Positions 3,038 to 26,653 of a DNA stretch of 28,155 bases are shown one piece after another (position 1 is the first letter of the stretch; each line of letters starts with the position of its first letter). The DNA comes from a virus. Under the pieces are notes generated by a model. It made no database searches. It worked only from the letters and a program-made list of their open reading frames with translations, and was not told the DNA's origin. The stretch covers positions 1-28,155 of the IMG/VR virus record IMGVR_UViG_3300043446_003713; one strand, given 5' to 3'. A program made the position numbers and the translations under genes.

Positions 3038-3263
3038 TTATCACGCGATCTTTCGAGCAATGACGACCGCGGACTTGTCCGCCGCCATCGCACGGTTGAA
3101 CCAAGAGTTCGCCGACCCCTACACCGCCATCTCAGCCGCCGGCACTTCCTCGCAACGCGACCGCGCACAAATCGCAACCGAACTCTCCGCCGCTTGTCAA
3201 GTTCACGCCGAACGCACCGCCTCCGGAAACCCTCGAACCCGCGCCCGCGCCTATTTCGCATGA
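3021..3263 (+). CDS. Small protein in the head-tail connector (gpW) position
   Basis: An 80-aa protein, MPNEIDYHAIF to RARAYFA, predicted mostly helical with alanine-rich stretches (LSAAIARLNQEF, ATELSAACQVH). It overlaps the terminase end by 17 bases and its stop overlaps the portal start (ATGA). In lambda-type genomes a small helical protein, gpW, lies exactly between terminase and portal and plugs the filled head, so location and size suggest the same job. I see no diagnostic gpW residues, so the assignment rests on context. A small terminase-interacting protein is an alternative. Confidence 0.7.
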   Translation: MPNEIDYHAIFRAMTTADLSAAIARLNQEFADPYTAISAAGTSSQRDRAQIATELSAACQVHAERTASGNPRTRARAYFA

Positions 3264-4969
3264 ACCTTTTCCACCGCATCAAACGCACCGCTTTCTCTTG
3301 GATCGGAGCCATGCCGAGCGCCGAACGAAAACTCACGCCGTCTCAAAACTCCAACCACCCCGAAACCTCAACCAACCAACGATCCCGCGTTCAACTGATT
3401 TGGGAAGCACGTGACCTGCAACGCAACCACCCACTAGTCGCCGGCATCCTCAAACGGTTGAGCTTGTACACCGTCGGAACCATCCGGTTTCAAGCCCGCA
3501 CCTCCGACCCCGCTTTCAACTCCGCTGCCGAAGCCTACTTCACCAGGTGGAGCAAAAACGCCGACATCGCCGGACGGTTCGACTTTGTCCATCTCATCCA
3601 ACTCGCGTTCGTCTCGTTTCTCCGCGACGGGGACGCCGTGATCGTCCACTCAATCACACCCGACGGGCTCAAACTCCAACTTGTGGAAGCAGACCGAGTA
3701 GGGAACCCCTACGCCTCAAACGTGGCCGACAACGAAATCGGCGGAATCTGTTTTGACGACCTCGGACGCCCAGAAACGTTCCGAATCTACCGGCGCAGCA
3801 TGGGCGCCGCCTACGTTGACCCGCAAGAAATCCCCGCCGCCCGTTGTCTCCACCTTTTCGACCCCGAACGCCACGACTCTTACCGTGGAGTTTCCGCCCT
3901 CGCGCCCGTAATCGCGACCTGTCGCGATATAGTCGACATCCTCGAAGGTGAAAAAGCCGCCGTTAAATGGGCCGCCGGACAATCCGGCCTCGTCAAAACC
4001 CAAGGAGGCAACGGCCAAGGATGGGACGAAACGACGTCAACCGGCGAACGCATCGAACGCATCAAACCCGGAACCATCCACTACCTAAAGCCGGGGGAAG
4101 AGGTGCAGAGTTTCAGAAACGAACGCCCCAGCGTGACCTTCACCGGTTTCCTCGAAACCCTGCAACGCCACCTTTCGGACGCACTCGGCCTGCCCTACGG
4201 TTTCTTCGTCGACTCCAGCAAACTCGGTGGCGTCACCGCACGTCTCGACTCCCAGCAAGCCGCCCGAGTTTGCCGACGCTACCAAGATTTAATCGCCCGC
4301 CAAATCCTCGACCCCATCGCGGAAGCCGTCGTCGCCCTCGGAATCGCCGAGGGAGCAATCCCCGAGCACCAAAACTGGACCGCGCACAGGTGGCAGTTTC
4401 CGCCGTGGCCGTCCGCGGACATCGGCCGCGAAACAAAAGCCGCCCTCGAGGAGATCGCCGCCGGTGGGGGAACTTGGGCCGAGTACTACGCAGAGAAAGG
4501 TGAAGATTGGGAGGAGGCGTTCAGCCAATCCGCTATCGAAACCGCACGCCGCAAAGCGATTTTCTCCGCAGCCGGAGTGGCCGACCCCATCATCGCAGCC
4601 GCCGCAATGAAACCCGGAGCCGGAGCCCCGCCACCGCCCGCAGCATTCGAAGCCAAGCCGGAATCCTATGAACCGCCAAAAGGCGTTCGCGACGCAGCCG
4701 CTCGAGCACTCCGCGAACGCCAGCAAAAGCCGCCGAGTCAACGCGGAATGACCCCTGTTGGACTCGCCCGCGCCCGCGACCTCGCCAACGGACGGAGGGT
4801 TTCGGTGGAGACACTCAAACGCATGAAAGCCTACTTCGACCGACACGAAGTCGACAAAAAAGGCAGCACTTGGGACGCATACGGCAAAGGCCGCCAAGCG
4901 TGGGACGGATGGGGCGGAGACGCGGGCCGCGCATGGGCAAATCGTATTCTGGCCGGCCTCGAAAAATGA
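3260..4969 (+). CDS. Portal protein, lambda gpB-like, with appended C-terminal module
   Basis: A 569-aa portal that forms the ring through which DNA enters the head and to which neck proteins attach. The N-terminal half has the typical ARDLQRNHPLVAGILKRL helix (50-67), then FVHLIQLAFVSFLRDGDAVIVH (109-130), the GDAxxxH-type segment of lambda-family portals. The middle has a YRGVSALAPV strand-turn and a SDALGLPYGFF segment. The last 77 residues are different: a proline- and alanine-rich linker leads into RDLANGRRVSVETLKRM, HEVDKKG and WDGWGGDAGRAWANRIL, a small module I recall on the ends of various phage structural proteins. The ATG at 3260 overlaps the preceding stop; an earlier in-frame ATG would overlap that gene much further. 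The HAD gene begins inside the stop codon. Confidence 0.9.
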   Translation: MNLFHRIKRTAFSWIGAMPSAERKLTPSQNSNHPETSTNQRSRVQLIWEARDLQRNHPLVAGILKRLSLYTVGTIRFQARTSDPAFNSAAEAYFTRWSKNADIAGRFDFVHLIQLAFVSFLRDGDAVIVHSITPDGLKLQLVEADRVGNPYASNVADNEIGGICFDDLGRPETFRIYRRSMGAAYVDPQEIPAARCLHLFDPERHDSYRGVSALAPVIATCRDIVDILEGEKAAVKWAAGQSGLVKTQGGNGQGWDETTSTGERIERIKPGTIHYLKPGEEVQSFRNERPSVTFTGFLETLQRHLSDALGLPYGFFVDSSKLGGVTARLDSQQAARVCRRYQDLIARQILDPIAEAVVALGIAEGAIPEHQNWTAHRWQFPPWPSADIGRETKAALEEIAAGGGTWAEYYAEKGEDWEEAFSQSAIETARRKAIFSAAGVADPIIAAAAMKPGAGAPPPPAAFEAKPESYEPPKGVRDAAARALRERQQKPPSQRGMTPVGLARARDLANGRRVSVETLKRMKAYFDRHEVDKKGSTWDAYGKGRQAWDGWGGDAGRAWANRILAGLEK

Positions 4970-7983: not shown

Positions 7984-8303
7984 ACCCCCTCTTCCAGTCT
8001 TCAATCCGCCGAGCATTCAACCACTCCGTCACCGTCTTCGGCGCGGACGTACTCCTCAACGGCGAAACCGTGCAAGCTATCGTCTCCGAGTCTGAGTTTT
8101 CGACCGTCCCAGAGGAGGGAGGCGTCAACGCCGGAGGAGAAATCACAATCCGGATCTCGCGCACAACTTTTGAGGAGTTTGGAAAAGCAGGCGACCCTCG
8201 CAAAAACCTGTTCAGCGTCAACGGGCAAAAATACCGCCCAACCTCTGTCACCGACATTCCCGAAAACCCCATCCTCATTTTCCAAACGAGGCAGGATCAA
8301 TGA
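7980..8303 (+). CDS. Head-tail joining protein candidate (lambda FII-like)
   Basis: A 107-aa beta-rich protein. It has an N-terminal FQSSIRRAFNHSVTVFGADVLLNGETVQAIVSESE, then GEITIRISRTTFEEFG and SVNGQKYRPTSVTDIPENPILIF. The order resembles small neck proteins such as lambda gpFII and the phage-attachment family, where a G-x-x-V-x-A-I-V segment is followed by strands and a V-x-G-x-x-Y turn. Such proteins form a ring beneath the portal to which the tail docks. It starts on ATGA and ends inside the next start. Position directly after the capsid gene and before tail genes supports this. Confidence 0.65.
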   Translation: MNPLFQSSIRRAFNHSVTVFGADVLLNGETVQAIVSESEFSTVPEEGGVNAGGEITIRISRTTFEEFGKAGDPRKNLFSVNGQKYRPTSVTDIPENPILIFQTRQDQ

Positions 8304-8731
8304 GCACGTTTCTTTACGACCTCGAAGCCGGAATCGTGGCCGCAATCACGGCAGACCCCGACGTTGCCGGAATCACGGTGACGACCTCGCAAACCGACGA
8401 AGTCAAAGATACCCTCTCCGCCTTCGTCGCCCTCGAACATTCCCGGGAAGTGGTCGCCGGTTCGCGAATTTTCATCCTCGACGGAAACCTCGCCCTCCGC
8501 ATTAATCGCTCGCAATACTCCGCAGACGAAGCCGCCGCAGCCGTCCAAAATCTCACCGCAGCACTCCTCAACGCCCCGACCGGCGCAGACGGTTTCGACG
8601 TGTTCTCCAACGGTTCCGCAAAATCAATCGGCTTCGTAATGGGCCCGCACAACACGAACTACAAAGACGAGGTGGAACTCCACGTTTTTTCGTTTAAGAT
8701 TTGGGCGTTCCAACTTCAACCCGCACCCTAA
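8300..8731 (+). CDS. Tail terminator or completion protein candidate
   Basis: A 143-aa protein with an N-terminal helix (LYDLEAGIVAAITADPDV), a central VALEHSREVVAGSRIFILDGNLALRINRS and a C-terminal strand pair ending DEVELHVFSFKIWAFQL. Small alpha/beta proteins of this size between neck and tail-tube genes are usually the tail terminator (lambda gpU type), which caps the tube and joins it to the head. The start has one of the few purine-rich sites in the window (GAGGCAGGA, 8288-8296). No decisive motif is visible, so the role rests on size, shape and order. Confidence 0.55.
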   Translation: MSTFLYDLEAGIVAAITADPDVAGITVTTSQTDEVKDTLSAFVALEHSREVVAGSRIFILDGNLALRINRSQYSADEAAAAVQNLTAALLNAPTGADGFDVFSNGSAKSIGFVMGPHNTNYKDEVELHVFSFKIWAFQLQPAP

Positions 8732-8735
8732 ACAC

Positions 8736-9074
8736 ATGGCAACAATCATCAAAAACGACCAAGAATACGGAACGCTAGGCGTCACGACCACACTCGACGG
8801 AATGATCGTGACGCAGGCAAATCGGCGCAAAGTAGCGCAAACGAAGGAAATCATCGGCCCGGCCGGTGACGTCTTGTCCTTCGCAATCTTCAACCAAAAG
8901 ACCGAGGTGACGCTTGACGGTTTCATCTCCGGCAGTTACGACCGCACAATCGGGCAGACAATTTCTGGGAGCGAGACGACAACCTTTATCGACTCGATCT
9001 CGCGCAGTTTCTCCGCCGAAGACGTCGCAAAACTCACCATCTCCGCGACCGTTTACGCAGGCCTCACCGCTTAA
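8736..9074 (+). CDS. Virion protein, first copy of a tandem pair (tail tube position)
   Basis: A 112-aa protein beginning MATIIKNDQEYGTLGVTT. It aligns over its full length with the next gene: the same MAxIIK start, a central KxxxxxKEI followed by a glycine turn and a strand, and SAEDVAKLTISATVY matching SAEDMTKRTLTAVAY at the end. Between the tail terminator and the tail chaperone lambda-like phages encode the tail tube, so these may be tube or tube-decorating proteins, but 112 residues is short for a tube protein and no tube-specific motif can be recognised. The gene has its own ATG five bases after the preceding stop. Confidence 0.7.
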   Translation: MATIIKNDQEYGTLGVTTTLDGMIVTQANRRKVAQTKEIIGPAGDVLSFAIFNQKTEVTLDGFISGSYDRTIGQTISGSETTTFIDSISRSFSAEDVAKLTISATVYAGLTA

Positions 9075-9087
9075 CCTATCAAAACTT

Positions 9088-9426
9088 ATGGCAGCAATTA
9101 TCAAGGGACAGGCACTCACTTTCGGGACAGGCACAACCCCTAACCTCATCACCTCCGCAACCGTCAATCGCAATTCGTCAAAAAAGGAGATTGCCAACGG
9201 TTCCGGCGGTTTCGGCGCGGTCGTTTACTACGCCGTCAAGGACGAAATCAACATCGAAACCTACGCAGCCGATGACGCCGACGCAGGCGACGAATACACC
9301 CTCCCGGGCCTCATCTCGGGTTATGTCCAAGGCCTCGTCATCATCACCGCAGCCGACAGCATCCAATCCGCCGAAGACATGACAAAACGCACGCTGACGG
9401 CCGTTGCCTACGCTCAGATCGACTAA
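9088..9426 (+). CDS. Virion protein, second copy of a tandem pair
   Basis: Also 112 aa, beginning MAAIIKGQALTFGTGTTPN. Beta-strand-rich, with VVYYAVKDEINIETYAADD in the middle and SAEDMTKRTLTAVAYAQID at the end. Low but clear full-length similarity and identical length to the preceding gene indicate a tandem duplication followed by divergence. The ATG at 9088 is 13 bases after the previous stop and preserves the shared MAxIIK start; longer upstream in-frame reading would overlap its sister. One of the pair could form the tail tube and the other an outer domain or assembly partner. Confidence 0.7.
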   Translation: MAAIIKGQALTFGTGTTPNLITSATVNRNSSKKEIANGSGGFGAVVYYAVKDEINIETYAADDADAGDEYTLPGLISGYVQGLVIITAADSIQSAEDMTKRTLTAVAYAQID

Positions 9427-9445
9427 CAGCCCCGCGAAGTTTCCG

Positions 9446-9469
9446 GGAGCCTAGGGCAAAATAGGCGCC
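9446..9469 (+). other. Weak hairpin in the gap before the next gene
   Basis: GGAGCCTA and TAGGCGCC form an 8-bp arm with one mismatch around an 8-base loop. It lies in the 79-base gap 9427-9505, one of the longer gaps in the structural region. No T run follows, so it is not a standard terminator; it might slow transcription or protect the RNA end. Confidence 0.35.
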
Positions 9470-9505
9470 TTCGATAAAAAACCGGATTCCCCGACAACTC
9501 CGACC

Positions 9506-9994
9506 ATGCTCTCCTACTTTTCGACCGACAACCAACGCCTCGCCGTCACACTCGCAACCCTAGGCATTCAGCCATCGCCTCAAAACCCCGTTTCAAGCGA
9601 GGAAGTCAACGCAACGACAAACCGCCTGACGTTCCACTTCCAACCAGCAGGCACCTGGGCGCCGTTTGGCGGCCAACCGGAATCACCAATCCGCGCCGAG
9701 GACGTGGCCGCCGCATTTAACGGACAAGCCTCAACACTCCCCGCCGGAGCACTCGCCGAACTCGAGCAAATCCGCGACGCGTTGAAATCGCCTGGGACGT
9801 TCCAAGCCATGCGGAAAAGTGAAAACCCCGCCGTCTCTTATCTCGCCATCGCAGCATCCGAGAACGCTTGCATCCTCGCAAAACTCGCCGCCGCCGCGCC
9901 AACATACCGGAGGAGCCGTCTTCGTGGAGGAACCCTTCACGCCCCCATTGACAAATGGGACGAAGCCATGAAAACCTTCCGAGCTTTCCGCTAA
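9506..9994 (+). CDS. Unknown tail-region protein
   Basis: A 162-aa protein, MLSYFSTDNQRLAVTLATLGIQP at its start. The N-terminal part includes a beta-type stretch TNRLTFHFQPAGTW, the middle is helical (AGALAELEQIRDALKSPGTFQAMRKS), and the end is basic and helical (DKWDEAMKTFRAFR). I do not recognise the family. It lies between the 112-aa pair and the frameshifted tail chaperone, so it is probably a tail assembly or accessory protein. There is no Shine-Dalgarno sequence; the start is the first ATG after a 79-base gap. Confidence 0.6.
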   Translation: MLSYFSTDNQRLAVTLATLGIQPSPQNPVSSEEVNATTNRLTFHFQPAGTWAPFGGQPESPIRAEDVAAAFNGQASTLPAGALAELEQIRDALKSPGTFQAMRKSENPAVSYLAIAASENACILAKLAAAAPTYRRSRLRGGTLHAPIDKWDEAMKTFRAFR

Positions 9995-10015: not shown

Positions 10016-10393
10016 ATGCTAGACGACCTGCAACACCTCATCCTGCCCGAAGCCGAAACCGTCGCCGGACTCACCCTCCGGCCGCTCACGCTCCAAACTT
10101 ACGCGCTCCTCGAGATGTCGGAGAATCAAATCCTGACCGCCCCAGAGGCACGGATGCAGGATGTCCTCGGTTTTCTTTATCTGCACACCGCGGATCTAAA
10201 AGCGGTTTGCTCCACCGTTTCCGCCTACGTCAACGGGAACAAGGCCGCCATCCTTCAAGCGGCACTCACCCTTCCACCAATTCCTCTCTCAAACCTCGCC
10301 GCCATCGCGCAACAGATCCGCGGAATGATTGAACGCGCCACCGCCGCGCAACCAATCGTCGACGCGCCAAACACCACCACGGCGGGAAACTAA
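10016..10393 (+). CDS. Tail assembly chaperone, short form (lambda gpG-like)
   Basis: A 125-aa protein with TVAGLTLRPLTLQTYALLEMSENQ near the start, a strand-then-helix pattern I associate with tail assembly chaperones, then helices carrying DVLGFLYLHTADLKAV. Chaperones of this type bind the tape measure protein and recruit tail tube subunits. It lies upstream of the tape measure gene, as gpG does in lambda. It ends in AGN followed by TAA, and the last two sense codons sit in a GGGAAAC slippery heptamer, so a fraction of ribosomes should continue into the -1 frame. No Shine-Dalgarno site is visible. Confidence 0.78.
   Translation: MLDDLQHLILPEAETVAGLTLRPLTLQTYALLEMSENQILTAPEARMQDVLGFLYLHTADLKAVCSTVSAYVNGNKAAILQAALTLPPIPLSNLAAIAQQIRGMIERATAAQPIVDAPNTTTAGN
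10384..10390 (+). other. Programmed -1 frameshift site GGGAAAC
   Basis: The heptamer is split by the zero frame as G-GGA-AAC, exactly the X-XXY-YYZ form in which both tRNAs can re-pair one base back. It lies one codon before the TAA stop (10391-10393) of the chaperone gene. The -1 frame is open from 10333 to 10608. Lambda uses GGGAAAG at the same place in gene G. Confidence 0.85.
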
Positions 10394-10611
10394 GCAGGGC
10401 GGGAACCGTCGCACGCTTCGTGCATTTCTTCGCCGCCCGCTACGGTTGGCCGCCCGCTCAAATCCTCGCCCTCTCCGTTTGTGACGCAAACCACTTGATG
10501 CGAGCGGCGCTAGAAGCCGAAGGAATTCGACTCCGGCCCGCAGCCGGTTTAATCTCCGCACATGGCACGCCCGAGGATCACGTTCGAGATGAACCCGAAG
10601 GAATGGACTGA
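10390..10611 (+). CDS. Tail chaperone frameshift extension (lambda T-like)
   Basis: This is the -1 frame part of the chaperone fusion: 73 residues starting LSRAGTVARFVHFFAARYGWPPAQILALS and ending GTPEDHVRDEPEGMD, to TGA at 10609-10611. Joined after the AAC codon it would give a 198-residue gpGT-like protein, in which the T part recruits tail tube protein. The segment has no good start of its own: its only ATG-like starts lie beyond the conserved-looking FVHFFAARYGW. An independent GTG at about 10420 would give 63 residues and is less likely. It overlaps the next gene by 50 bases, which also resembles lambda-type packing. Confidence 0.75.
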   Translation, partial: LSRAGTVARFVHFFAARYGWPPAQILALSVCDANHLMRAALEAEGIRLRPAAGLISAHGTPEDHVRDEPEGMD

Positions 10612-11275
10612 CGTTTTCACACGTTACGTTCAAGAAACGCGCATGGACGCCAAGACGGCCTTCAAAAAAAAGGCGGTTTCAATCTCCTTCGCACTCCTCG
10701 CCGACCACCGAAAACTCCGTGGACGGATTCTCCGCGCCATCGACGCCGTCGCAAAACCTGGAAACGCAATCCGAATCCGCTCGAAAATCAAAACCGCACA
10801 GGCAAACCGCCTCGCAAAAGCCGAACAATCCGCCCGAACAAAAGCCGCCCGACTCGCGGCCATGATCAACAAAGAATCCAAATCCGCCCGCCGCACCAAA
10901 ACCTCTCTCGATAAGATGCGGGCGACAGTCAAAAGGCTAAGAGGCGAAACGACCGTCACCGACTTTCTCGGACGTGAGACAACCGACGAACGTAACCGAG
11001 AACTCATGGCCCGCCGACGTTCCGCCGGATTCATCGCCGCCAAATCGTGGAAACTTCAAGGACAAACACTCGACGACCTCGCCCCGACGGATAAAAAATC
11101 AAAACTTCGAAAACGACTCGACCCCGACAACCTCGGTCTCGAAATCGAAAACACGCGACCAAACATGGGCGACTTTGTTCGGAAAACCAAATATACACAG
11201 CAGACCCTGGACAACGAAGTCGCCGATATGCTCTTCAAAATTCGCCAAACCATCGAAAAACGTCTCGCAAAATGA
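10562..11275 (+). CDS. Basic helical tail-region protein between chaperone and tape measure
   Basis: A 237-aa, very basic and helical protein. The N-terminal WTDVFTRYVQETRMDAKTAFKKKAVSISFALL resembles the first helices of HK97 gp10-type tail completion proteins. The middle is rich in Lys/Arg/Ala (AKAEQSARTKAARLAAMINKESKSARRTK) and the end EVADMLFKIRQTIEKRLAK is helical again. In lambda the tape measure follows G/T directly, so this insertion is a departure. Its charge may help bind the acidic tape measure or DNA. The stop overlaps the tape measure start by ATGA. I am unsure of the function. Confidence 0.65.
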   Translation: MARPRITFEMNPKEWTDVFTRYVQETRMDAKTAFKKKAVSISFALLADHRKLRGRILRAIDAVAKPGNAIRIRSKIKTAQANRLAKAEQSARTKAARLAAMINKESKSARRTKTSLDKMRATVKRLRGETTVTDFLGRETTDERNRELMARRRSAGFIAAKSWKLQGQTLDDLAPTDKKSKLRKRLDPDNLGLEIENTRPNMGDFVRKTKYTQQTLDNEVADMLFKIRQTIEKRLAK

Positions 11276-13440
11276 GCACCGCATCCGCAACAGTCAAAAT
11301 CGGCGCATCAATCCAAGGCCTCACTCAAGGCCTGACCCAAGCCAAATCCGCCCTGTCTTCGTTCGCCGCACAGGCCGTTTCAGTCGCCGGAGGGCAAGCC
11401 CTTTTTGCAGGCATTCAAGGTGCGATCGGCCTCGTCTCAAAAGGGGTTCGCGGCCTCGGAGCAACTTTCGCCGAAGCCGTCGGGGAAGCCGGCAACTTCG
11501 AAAGCATTGTCGCGCAGTTCAACACGTTCTATAAAGACGCCAACCTCGCCGCCGGCGCCGTCGCCGAGCTTTCGAAATACTCAGCCACCACCGCCTTTCA
11601 GCTTGAGGAGGTGGCCAACGCCGGCGCAGGACTCGCCGCCGCCGGAGTTCCCGCCGAGCAACTCAAAGAGACCATCCGCGTTCTTGGCGACATCGCCGCC
11701 GGTTCCAAACGCCCCCTCGCGGAAATCCTCCAACCCTACGTCAAAACACTCTCCGTCGGAAAACTCCAAACCGAAGGATTCCTCCAGTTTCTCGAACGCG
11801 GCATTCCTTTGGGGGAACAACTCAAGAAAAGCCTCAACCTCGACGACGCCGGACTGACAAAAGCCCTCTCCTCCTCCGCAATCTCCGCGCAGGACGTCGT
11901 CTCCGCTTTGCAGGAAATCACGAAAACCGGCCTTTTCGCCGGAGCCGCAGCCGCACAGGGAGAAACCCTCAACGGCAAACTCTCCACCCTCTCAGACACC
12001 ATCACCGAAATCAAACGGAACCTCGGCCTCGCAGCCACCGCCGGACTAAAACCCCTCATTCAACTTGGAACCGACCTCGCCGCCAGTTTCGCCCCGATTG
12101 GAACCGCCCTTGGCAATATTTTCTCCGCCGCCTCGCAAACCGCCCTCCGTTTCGCCGACACGTTCAAAACCAAGTTTCAAGAAGCGGTCGACGGTGGCAT
12201 CAAAGTTTTCCAAATCCTGGAAGGAGCAATCCGTACCGGCACCCTCTGGGACGTCCTCGCCACCTCCGGCAAAATCGCTTTCGGGGAACTCAAACTCGCA
12301 GGCATCCAACTTTTCCAAGGCCTGCAAGCCCTTTTCGAACAGGGCGACCTGTTCTCATCCCTCGCCAGAATCTCAGACAAAATCATCCAAACCCTAATCG
12401 ACGGAGCGCCAAGGATCGGCGCAGCCTTCGAAGGGCCAGTCGGCACGGCATTCAAGAACGCCGCAAACGCTTTCGGCTCTTATCTAAAAGAACAAATCGA
12501 CTTCGCAGTTTCCGGACTCGCCGACCTCGTCCTTCCAAGTTTCCTATCCCCAGGTCGCGCCGACGTCACCGGCGCAGGGATGAACAAGGCCGGAGTCGAC
12601 TTTTCCGGAGGCACTATGTACGCCTCCGGCGGAATCACCGACGCCCAAGCCGCCGAGATGGCCGCCGCCGACGCCGCAGGATACCCCGTGCCACTCAGGC
12701 CGTCCGAAGTTCGCCAGACGTTCGCCGGTGGACGTCGCATCACCTACAACACGCGCGAAAGCCTCGCCAACGGGGAAATCATCCCGCCCTCCAACTCCCT
12801 GGCATTCGCCGGAGGCACAAACGCCGACCTCTCCCGCCTCGCCGACGTGTTCACCGCCGGAGCCACCAAGCAAACCGACGCAACCAAACGACTCGAAGCC
12901 TCACAAAAGGAACTCCGCGCGGAACTAAAACGCCTCGCCGAAGCCGCCATCGCCAACTCAACCGCAATCAAAGAACAAACCTCGTCCCTTCAAAATTCGC
13001 AAACGCTCACCGCTAAAACCGGCGCAGCCGAAGCACCAAAGCCCGAAGGAGGCGCAGCCGGAGGAGGCAAAGAGTTTACTTCGCTCGAAAAAATCGGAGG
13101 CGGCCGCCGGACTCTCAACCTAGCACCCCGCGCCCCTATGATCGGCCTCGAAGGAACCGCGCCTGGACTCCGCGCAGCCGGAGACCTCGGCGGAGGTTTC
13201 GCAAACTCTCCGGCATTCGAAGCCGCAAAGAAAAAGGCCGAACTCCTCAAAATACCCATCCAAGGCCCGCCCGTCGCGCCGTTCTTGCAACAGCAGGCCG
13301 CCCAACAACAAATCGCGCCAAAACCAGAAGTCGACCCCGAAGTGGCCCTCCGCGCTCTCATGGAAGAGATCTCCCGCGGACTAAACGGAGTCACCGACGC
13401 AATCACGCGCCAAGGTTCGCTCAACGTAGCCGTCGTATGA
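11272..13440 (+). CDS. Tail tape measure protein
   Basis: The longest gene in the window (722 aa). The N-terminal third is the usual conserved tape measure domain: GSKRPLAEILQPYVKTLSVGKLQTEGFLQFLERGIPLGEQL matches the pattern seen after a helical start with SIQGLTQGLTQAKSALSSFA. Residues about 250-400 contain long amphipathic or hydrophobic helices (LGLAATAGLKPLIQLGTDLAASFAPIGTALGNIF) able to enter the membrane. A Lys/Glu/Gln coiled coil follows (TKQTDATKRLEASQKELRAELKRLAEAAI). By the rule of about 0.15 nm per residue the tail would be near 108 nm. It starts ATGA on the preceding stop and is followed by another ATGA overlap. Confidence 0.9.
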   Translation: MSTASATVKIGASIQGLTQGLTQAKSALSSFAAQAVSVAGGQALFAGIQGAIGLVSKGVRGLGATFAEAVGEAGNFESIVAQFNTFYKDANLAAGAVAELSKYSATTAFQLEEVANAGAGLAAAGVPAEQLKETIRVLGDIAAGSKRPLAEILQPYVKTLSVGKLQTEGFLQFLERGIPLGEQLKKSLNLDDAGLTKALSSSAISAQDVVSALQEITKTGLFAGAAAAQGETLNGKLSTLSDTITEIKRNLGLAATAGLKPLIQLGTDLAASFAPIGTALGNIFSAASQTALRFADTFKTKFQEAVDGGIKVFQILEGAIRTGTLWDVLATSGKIAFGELKLAGIQLFQGLQALFEQGDLFSSLARISDKIIQTLIDGAPRIGAAFEGPVGTAFKNAANAFGSYLKEQIDFAVSGLADLVLPSFLSPGRADVTGAGMNKAGVDFSGGTMYASGGITDAQAAEMAAADAAGYPVPLRPSEVRQTFAGGRRITYNTRESLANGEIIPPSNSLAFAGGTNADLSRLADVFTAGATKQTDATKRLEASQKELRAELKRLAEAAIANSTAIKEQTSSLQNSQTLTAKTGAAEAPKPEGGAAGGGKEFTSLEKIGGGRRTLNLAPRAPMIGLEGTAPGLRAAGDLGGGFANSPAFEAAKKKAELLKIPIQGPPVAPFLQQQAAQQQIAPKPEVDPEVALRALMEEISRGLNGVTDAITRQGSLNVAVV

Positions 13441-25786: not shown

Positions 25787-26653
25787 ATGGAAAACAAACT
25801 AAGCCTGTTCCAAGGCATCACAAACCCCATCGAAGCCGCACACCAACTCGGAGAGGCGTTCGCCGCCTCCGGCTTGTTCGGTTGCTCCCGACCCCAGCAG
25901 GGAACCGTCCTCGCGATGCAATGCCTCGCAACCGGAATGAGCCCGTTCGAACTCACCCAGACCTACCACATCATCGACGGGAAACTTTCGATGAAAGCCG
26001 ACGCCATGCTTGGCCGCTTTCTCTCCGCCGGAGGGAAAGCAGTCTGGGGTGCCCGTACGGCGGAAAAGGTCTCAGCCCGTTTCATCTACCGGGACAACGA
26101 CCTCGAAATGTCGGTCTCAATGCAAGAACTCATCGCCTCCGGCGTGGCCCTCTCCAAAGGTGACCAACTCAAAGACAACTACCGACGCCACCCGCGCCAA
26201 ATGCTCACCGCCCGTTTAATCTCCGAGGCCGTGCGCCTACTCGCGCCGGAAATCGTCGCCGGAGTTTACACACCGGAGGAGATCGGCGACTTCGCCACCG
26301 AATCGACGCCACCAAACCCAGTACCCCCTAAACCGGAACCACCAAAAGCCGAGCCGGAAACAAAGCCAAAGCCGACCAAAACCAAAGCGCCAACCATCGA
26401 AACAACCGCAGAAATCATCCCCGACTCCTCATTCGCACCGTTCTCTCGCTCGTTTTCCTCGCAGCCGGTCGCCGCAGACCCCGAGGACGAGTGGAAACAA
26501 ATCCTCGGCGAACACTACAAACTCGCCCTCGACTTCTTCCACGCGACCGGCGTTCTGAAAGACGCCCAAAAACTACAACACCTGCCCGACAGCTACAAAT
26601 CCGCGACCCGCACCAGGACCGCCGATCTCATCGCCAAAATCACCAAAAAATAA
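25787..26653 (+). CDS. RecT-like single-strand annealing protein candidate
   Basis: A 288-aa protein. Residues 1-165 have the order seen in a large phage family often named recombinase: QQGTVLAMQCLATGMSPFELTQTYHIIDGKLSMKADAMLG, then a strand region ARFIYRDNDLEMSVSMQEL, then NYRRHPRQMLTARLISEAVRLLAPEIVAGVYTPEEIG. A Pro/Lys/Glu-rich linker (about 175-205) leads to a C-terminal helical region (DEWKQILGEHYKLALDFFHATG). RuvC-like and SSB genes on its two sides support a recombination role. The resemblance to RecT proper is weak by eye, so this is provisional. The leader is C/A-rich (AAACAAAACCAA) and lacks a Shine-Dalgarno site. Confidence 0.6.
   Translation: MENKLSLFQGITNPIEAAHQLGEAFAASGLFGCSRPQQGTVLAMQCLATGMSPFELTQTYHIIDGKLSMKADAMLGRFLSAGGKAVWGARTAEKVSARFIYRDNDLEMSVSMQELIASGVALSKGDQLKDNYRRHPRQMLTARLISEAVRLLAPEIVAGVYTPEEIGDFATESTPPNPVPPKPEPPKAEPETKPKPTKTKAPTIETTAEIIPDSSFAPFSRSFSSQPVAADPEDEWKQILGEHYKLALDFFHATGVLKDAQKLQHLPDSYKSATRTRTADLIAKITKK

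Follow-up and report, generated by a model that had tools for sequence, protein, structure and literature searches.

Introduction

Is the tail chaperone gene of an uncultured phage read in two ways, as a short protein and, after a programmed −1 frameshift of the lambda G/GT kind, as a longer one? The question is raised by an IMG/VR virus record of 28,155 bases (IMGVR_UViG_3300043446_003713), analysed over its whole length and called the window here, in which two overlapping frames lie shortly upstream of a PF20155 tape measure gene (start at 11272), with one gene between. The slip site of lambda is GGGAAAG, and a sequence-only reading of the window had proposed a frameshift of this type in the tail chaperone. 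A conserved heptamer, a conserved −1 frame protein and an RNA stem, all found among relatives, support that proposal. We consider it highly probable that the frameshift is used at this junction and yields short and long forms of the chaperone.

Gene order and the chaperone gene

Open reading frames and family searches give the window a gene order typical of a tailed phage: terminase, portal, capsid, small head–tail and tail genes, chaperone, tape measure and further tail genes. All features of the junction lie on the + strand. The 0-frame, G-like gene (10016–10393) encodes 125 amino acids and is kept in relatives. Its product matched no Pfam or PHROG family; fold predictions are middling (pLDDT 69 and 74) and Foldseek gave no significant match (E > 0.1), the best viral matches including tail assembly chaperones, which at this level we do not count as evidence. 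We assign it as a probable tail assembly chaperone from its position, the architecture of the locus and distant homology. A major tail protein gene was sought among the small genes upstream (8300–9994), none of which matched a family in our searches. The tape measure protein (11272–13440, 722 aa) matches PF20155 TMP_3 (E 1.5e-19) and phrog_9959, tape measure (E 2.1e-21).

A 237-aa gene (10562–11275; a homologue in the relative L002 is 69% identical) separates the chaperone pair from the tape measure gene. It starts within the −1 frame, which ends 50 nt inside this gene. Only shifted ribosomes would reach its start region, so expression of the 237-aa gene is possibly coupled to frameshifting. 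The start of this gene also lies inside the −1 frame in L002.

Three further observations concern other parts of the window. Positions 230–967 match the TET-associated glycosyltransferase PF20691 (E 1.9e-7, above the cut-off), a hint that the DNA of this phage contains hypermodified bases. The C-terminal ∼ 100 aa of the portal protein (3260–4969) match many otherwise unrelated viral contigs at 50–72% identity and the rest of the protein does not, which suggests that this part is a mobile domain. Positions 25787–26653 encode a RecT-family single-strand annealing protein (PF03837, E 5e-6).

Relatives of the window

Viral contigs yielded no relatives when the query was the single chaperone or tape measure sequence of the window. 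These were reached through searches with the 237-aa gene and the portal protein, and the alignments were built from the sequences so obtained. Twenty-three chaperone loci were found, two of which (L098 and L106) end before the junction; one further locus, L130, lacks only the gene start. Together with the window, the 21 loci with a full junction make 22 sequences, which reduce to 15 distinct junctions. The INPHARED phage collection contained one distant relative, Akkermansia phage Moulinsart, and two scans of bacterial and archaeal genomes detected no prophage relative. The L024/L027 group, a weak chaperone match, was left out: its protein is longer, has no −1 extension after it, and adjoins a long frame that resembles a tape measure gene.

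The slippery heptamer

The 0-frame gene ends in ACG GCG GGA AAC TAA, which places the heptamer G_GGA_AAC (10384–10390) in X_XXY_YYZ phase and adjoining the stop codon (TAA, 10391–10393; TAA or TGA in relatives). The sequence-only reading had noted GGGAAAC in phase directly before the chaperone stop, and its coordinates and phase were right. It had also described a −1 frame open for 73 codons, a 198-residue fusion and an end just inside the next gene, all of which the open reading frames confirm. The −1 frame is open from 10333 to 10611; reading after the slip would start from base 10390 and give a T-like extension of 73 codons plus stop (10390–10611), and thus a predicted fusion of 125 + 73 = 198 aa.

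How much of this could arise by chance was estimated within the window, where 40 phase-correct X_XXY_YYZ heptamers occur in 8,879 codons, five of them G_GGA_AA[C/G]. In an overlap of ∼ 20 codons some tandem heptamer is expected ∼ 9% of the time and G_GGA_AA[C/G] ∼ 1%, and the −1 openings that follow other in-phase heptamers of the window reach 210 codons. Taken from this genome alone, the heptamer and the open −1 frame are real but weak evidence, and only suggestive. Since in-phase heptamers and long −1 openings are common here, the case must rest on the relatives. The same frequencies are what a chance heptamer in a GC-rich genome, followed by a fortuitously open frame, has in its favour. Against it stands the comparison of the 15 distinct junctions, in which site, frame, protein and RNA stem are all conserved, and we find such a coincidence scarcely credible. 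We rejected both chance and sequencing error on the agreement between independent contigs, and transcriptional slippage for want of a long A or T tract.

GGGAAAC is invariant in 14 of the 15 distinct junctions, while the codons around it vary. Where the heptamer adjoins the stop (13 sequences), GGA AAC is preceded by CCG, GCG, ACG or GTG, codons for four amino acids with G as the third base without exception. Of 117 windows of three codons in the chaperone gene, NNG GGA AAC is the only one whose third bases are all invariant. This pattern indicates that the heptamer is selected at the nucleotide level, as DNA. The relative L105, at ∼ 40% identity, reads GAG GGA AAC GAA, with its 0-frame stop seven codons downstream; as the heptamer is kept despite the shifted stop, the fixed element is the heptamer and not the stop. 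Across the related phages, heptamer, phase and both frames are kept in all junctions except that shared by L084 and L104. L085 and L100 have internal Shine–Dalgarno-like stretches ∼ 11 nt upstream of the heptamer; as the window lacks them, we do not claim them as part of the signal.

The −1 frame

The protein-like look of the −1 frame, remarked on in the earlier reading, is matched by conservation at the protein level, whose absence that reading had named as grounds for refutation. The frame is 62–69% identical to its counterparts in relatives, compared with 53–56% for the chaperone itself, and its median dN/dS is ∼ 0.10 (chaperone, 0.125). Variable positions fall at 28, 16 and 46 of 50 codons for codon positions 1, 2 and 3. 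Past the junction, every relative has stops in the 0 frame, and most relatives also have them in the +1 frame. From these comparisons we conclude that the −1 frame encodes a real protein, on which purifying selection acts.

Such a protein could also come from a separate small gene, translated either from a start codon of its own or through re-initiation coupled to termination at the chaperone stop. One group of relatives has an ATG close to the junction, in L084 a GTGA overlaps the stop with a G-rich stretch upstream, and in Moulinsart the pair is annotated as two ORFs. However, no start codon is conserved: the one column concerned holds ACC, ATG, ATC or GTG (ACC in the window, ATC in L085 and L100, ATG in that one group), and the first in-frame GTG of the window's −1 frame, at 10420, has no Shine–Dalgarno sequence at normal spacing. 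Re-initiation would moreover leave unexplained both the invariant wobble positions of GGGAAAC and the retention of GGGAAAC in L105, where the stop has moved. We therefore regard a separate gene as very improbable, and the frameshift as the reading that accounts for the −1 protein.

The downstream RNA stem

A feature missed in the first reading lies just beyond the heptamer. A 10-bp stem begins after a spacer of 6 nt (10391–10396) that is equal in length in all aligned relatives; its 5′ arm is at 10397–10406 and its 3′ arm at 10462–10471 (columns 23–32 and 88–97 of alignment A6). Among 12 sequences, 96.7% of the cells in the stem columns are paired, compared with 43–68% when the columns are slid. 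Two pairs that join codon third positions covary, as G–C/A–U/U–G at one and G–C/A–U at the other, and in the 3′ arm the third base of an alanine codon is C in 13 of 13 sequences. Synonymous recodings, which preserve the protein, served as controls: relative to them, the 80 nt downstream fold more stably in 10 of the 12 aligned junctions, with z-scores of −2.9 to −5.0. Rfam gave no match.

The folding signal is weaker in the window and in L084, at only about 1.1–1.2 SD from recoding (z −1.1 for the window). The outer stem nevertheless has a pair probability of > 0.99 in L084. Its occupancy in the window is ∼ 25%, and there a shorter, compact hairpin that uses the same 5′ arm (10393–10441; 50-nt fold z −3.0; minimum free energy −24.6 kcal/mol for the fold of columns 17–69) competes with it. 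A stimulatory stem would be expected 5–9 nt after the heptamer and with covariation; here the spacer is 6 nt, the stem 10 bp and the number of covarying pairs two. The alignment thus points firmly to a covarying 3′ stem-loop conserved in the window's clade, and its position suggests that it stimulates the shift.

A variant site in L084 and L104

The contigs L084 and L104 come from different metagenomes and have an identical junction, in which GGGAAAC is absent. At the homologous codon they read CTG GGG GAG TCG, i.e. G_GGG_GAG, with the 0-frame stop five codons after the site and the downstream stem kept. A slip here would allow perfect P-site re-pairing on GGG, and the A-site tRNA-Glu on GGA would need a G–U pair. 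The related heptamer GGGGGAA accounts for about a thousand motifs in SEA-PHAGES genomes, and the authors of PRFect describe re-pairing of this kind (PMC10885494). The tail assembly chaperones of these actinophages have a G-run slip with G–U re-pairing (PMC10885494), as is predicted for L084; the window has the classical heptamer.

The sequence-only reading had named relatives with the heptamer destroyed and both frames kept as evidence against frameshifting. L084 and L104 fit that description to the letter, but they carry G_GGG_GAG at the homologous codon together with the same stem, and the comparison indicates that their site was changed rather than lost. This clade might instead have given up frameshifting for re-initiation, with frameshifting retained in the window and the other relatives. 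A GTG start that overlaps the TGA (GAG TGA TC), with GGGG five bases upstream, speaks for this, as does the missing GGGAAAC. It would not account for G_GGG_GAG at exactly the homologous codon, for the retained, almost fully paired stem or for the frequency of GGGGGAA as a chaperone slip motif in SEA-PHAGES genomes (PMC10885494), and we think such a loss unlikely. The fuller reading, which we favour with some reserve, is that of a lambda-type chaperone frameshift in a clade without a close cultured relative, with a covarying 3′ stem-loop in its signal, in which one clade has swapped G_GGA_AAC for G_GGG_GAG while keeping stem and frames. If true, this natural exchange at the same codon would show that the two sites are functionally interchangeable.

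Comparison with known systems

Compared with the phage collection, the chaperone fusions of the window's clade matched only Moulinsart (ON453896.1). At the aligned position this phage reads TCA AAA AAC TAG, with A_AAA_AAC before the stop and a −1 frame that continues. An hhalign comparison of the fusions with the Moulinsart fusion gave E 1.2e-10 over 167 columns, and the two junctions fall opposite each other; for the T part alone homology to Moulinsart was not significant (E 0.08). Moulinsart thus shares with the window distant homology, a heptamer followed by a stop, a −1 extension and a stem after a 6-nt spacer, this stem being a separate one of its own (z −2.4 relative to recoding). It differs in having AAAAAAC for GGGAAAC, two annotated hypothetical proteins and more genes before the tape measure gene. 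The two adjacent hypothetical proteins are WAK79076 and WAK79077 (L129 9962–10662, which corresponds to ON453896.1 10632–11332), and their sequence suggests a −1 frameshift pair, absent from the annotation, at AAAAAAC then TAG.

Other phages resemble the window in the signal. In Burkholderia phage KL1 a frameshift between gp18 and gp19 was predicted at G_GGA_AAC, directly before TGA (PMC3483164). KL1 shares GGGAAAC adjoining the 0-frame stop, a −1 extension, one gene before the tape measure gene and a possible stem downstream, but its proteins are longer (142 and 264 aa) and no sequence relation was found. The tail chaperones of the haloarchaeal virus HCTV-1 (PMC5009743) and of Caulobacter phage Colossus (PMC3556154) also have G_GGA_AAC; these phages are unrelated to the window, and the comparison with them covered the heptamer. 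Lambda G/GT shows no detectable homology to the window, which differs in having AAC for AAG, a stop directly after the heptamer and a conserved downstream stem.

A DNA-only pattern, GGGAAACTRAGNNGGGCNGG (heptamer, stop and GGGC.GG), was designed from the window's clade. It matched 43 viral contigs, 42 of them where a chaperone-like gene continues in the −1 frame (G/T-like) and one unrelated; the contig stretch of one of the 42, L145, ends just past the junction. About half of the matches belong to the window's clade and about half to an unrelated family, with phrog_569 as the first frame, phrog_680/DUF1799 as the −1 frame and Rhodobacter and Rhodovulum phages as named members. With a pattern derived from the window's clade, a stem arm common to this second family cannot be counted as evidence that the stem itself is shared, and the folds of that family are only weakly better than those of recodings. 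The same GGGAAACTGAG..GGGC.GG junction is found in L134, L137, L139, L140, L147 and other members of the second family. Both phrog_569 and phrog_680 are labelled tape measure, yet look like a chaperone pair.

Proposed mechanism

Support at the level of sequence comes from the heptamer and its phase, the −1 protein kept among relatives, a site conserved at the nucleotide level and the conserved RNA stem; from these we infer that slippage happens, at whatever rate. Most ribosomes would read the 125-aa chaperone and stop at the TAA at 10391. In a minority, tRNA-Gly on GGA and tRNA-Asn on AAC would move back jointly by one base, onto GGG and AAA, and these ribosomes would continue for 73 codons to give the 198-aa fusion. 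The stem-loop 6 nt after the heptamer would raise the rate of slipping, and slow termination at the adjacent stop possibly does so too. In lambda, the short form gpG coats the tape measure protein and the extension in gpGT recruits the major tail protein (Levin 1993; Xu 2013, 2014, reviewed in PMC5009743). Chaperone pairs of this type are made in a set ratio, and both products are absent from the virion. By analogy, the short form encoded in the window may coat its tape measure protein and the extension may recruit its major tail protein; for the window, the lambda roles are thus only inferred.

The mechanism itself is known; the conserved stem and the exchange of the heptamer in one clade are the parts that specialists may value. 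The family offers a clean comparative data set, in heptamer, stop position, spacer and stem, for asking which parts set the ratio of short to long form, and a DNA-level signature finds such junctions without protein similarity. The frameshift would extend the conserved tail-chaperone mechanism to an uncultured phage clade with a chaperone that neither Pfam nor PHROGs detects, and a cultured Akkermansia phage is predicted to carry a frameshift that its annotation lacks.
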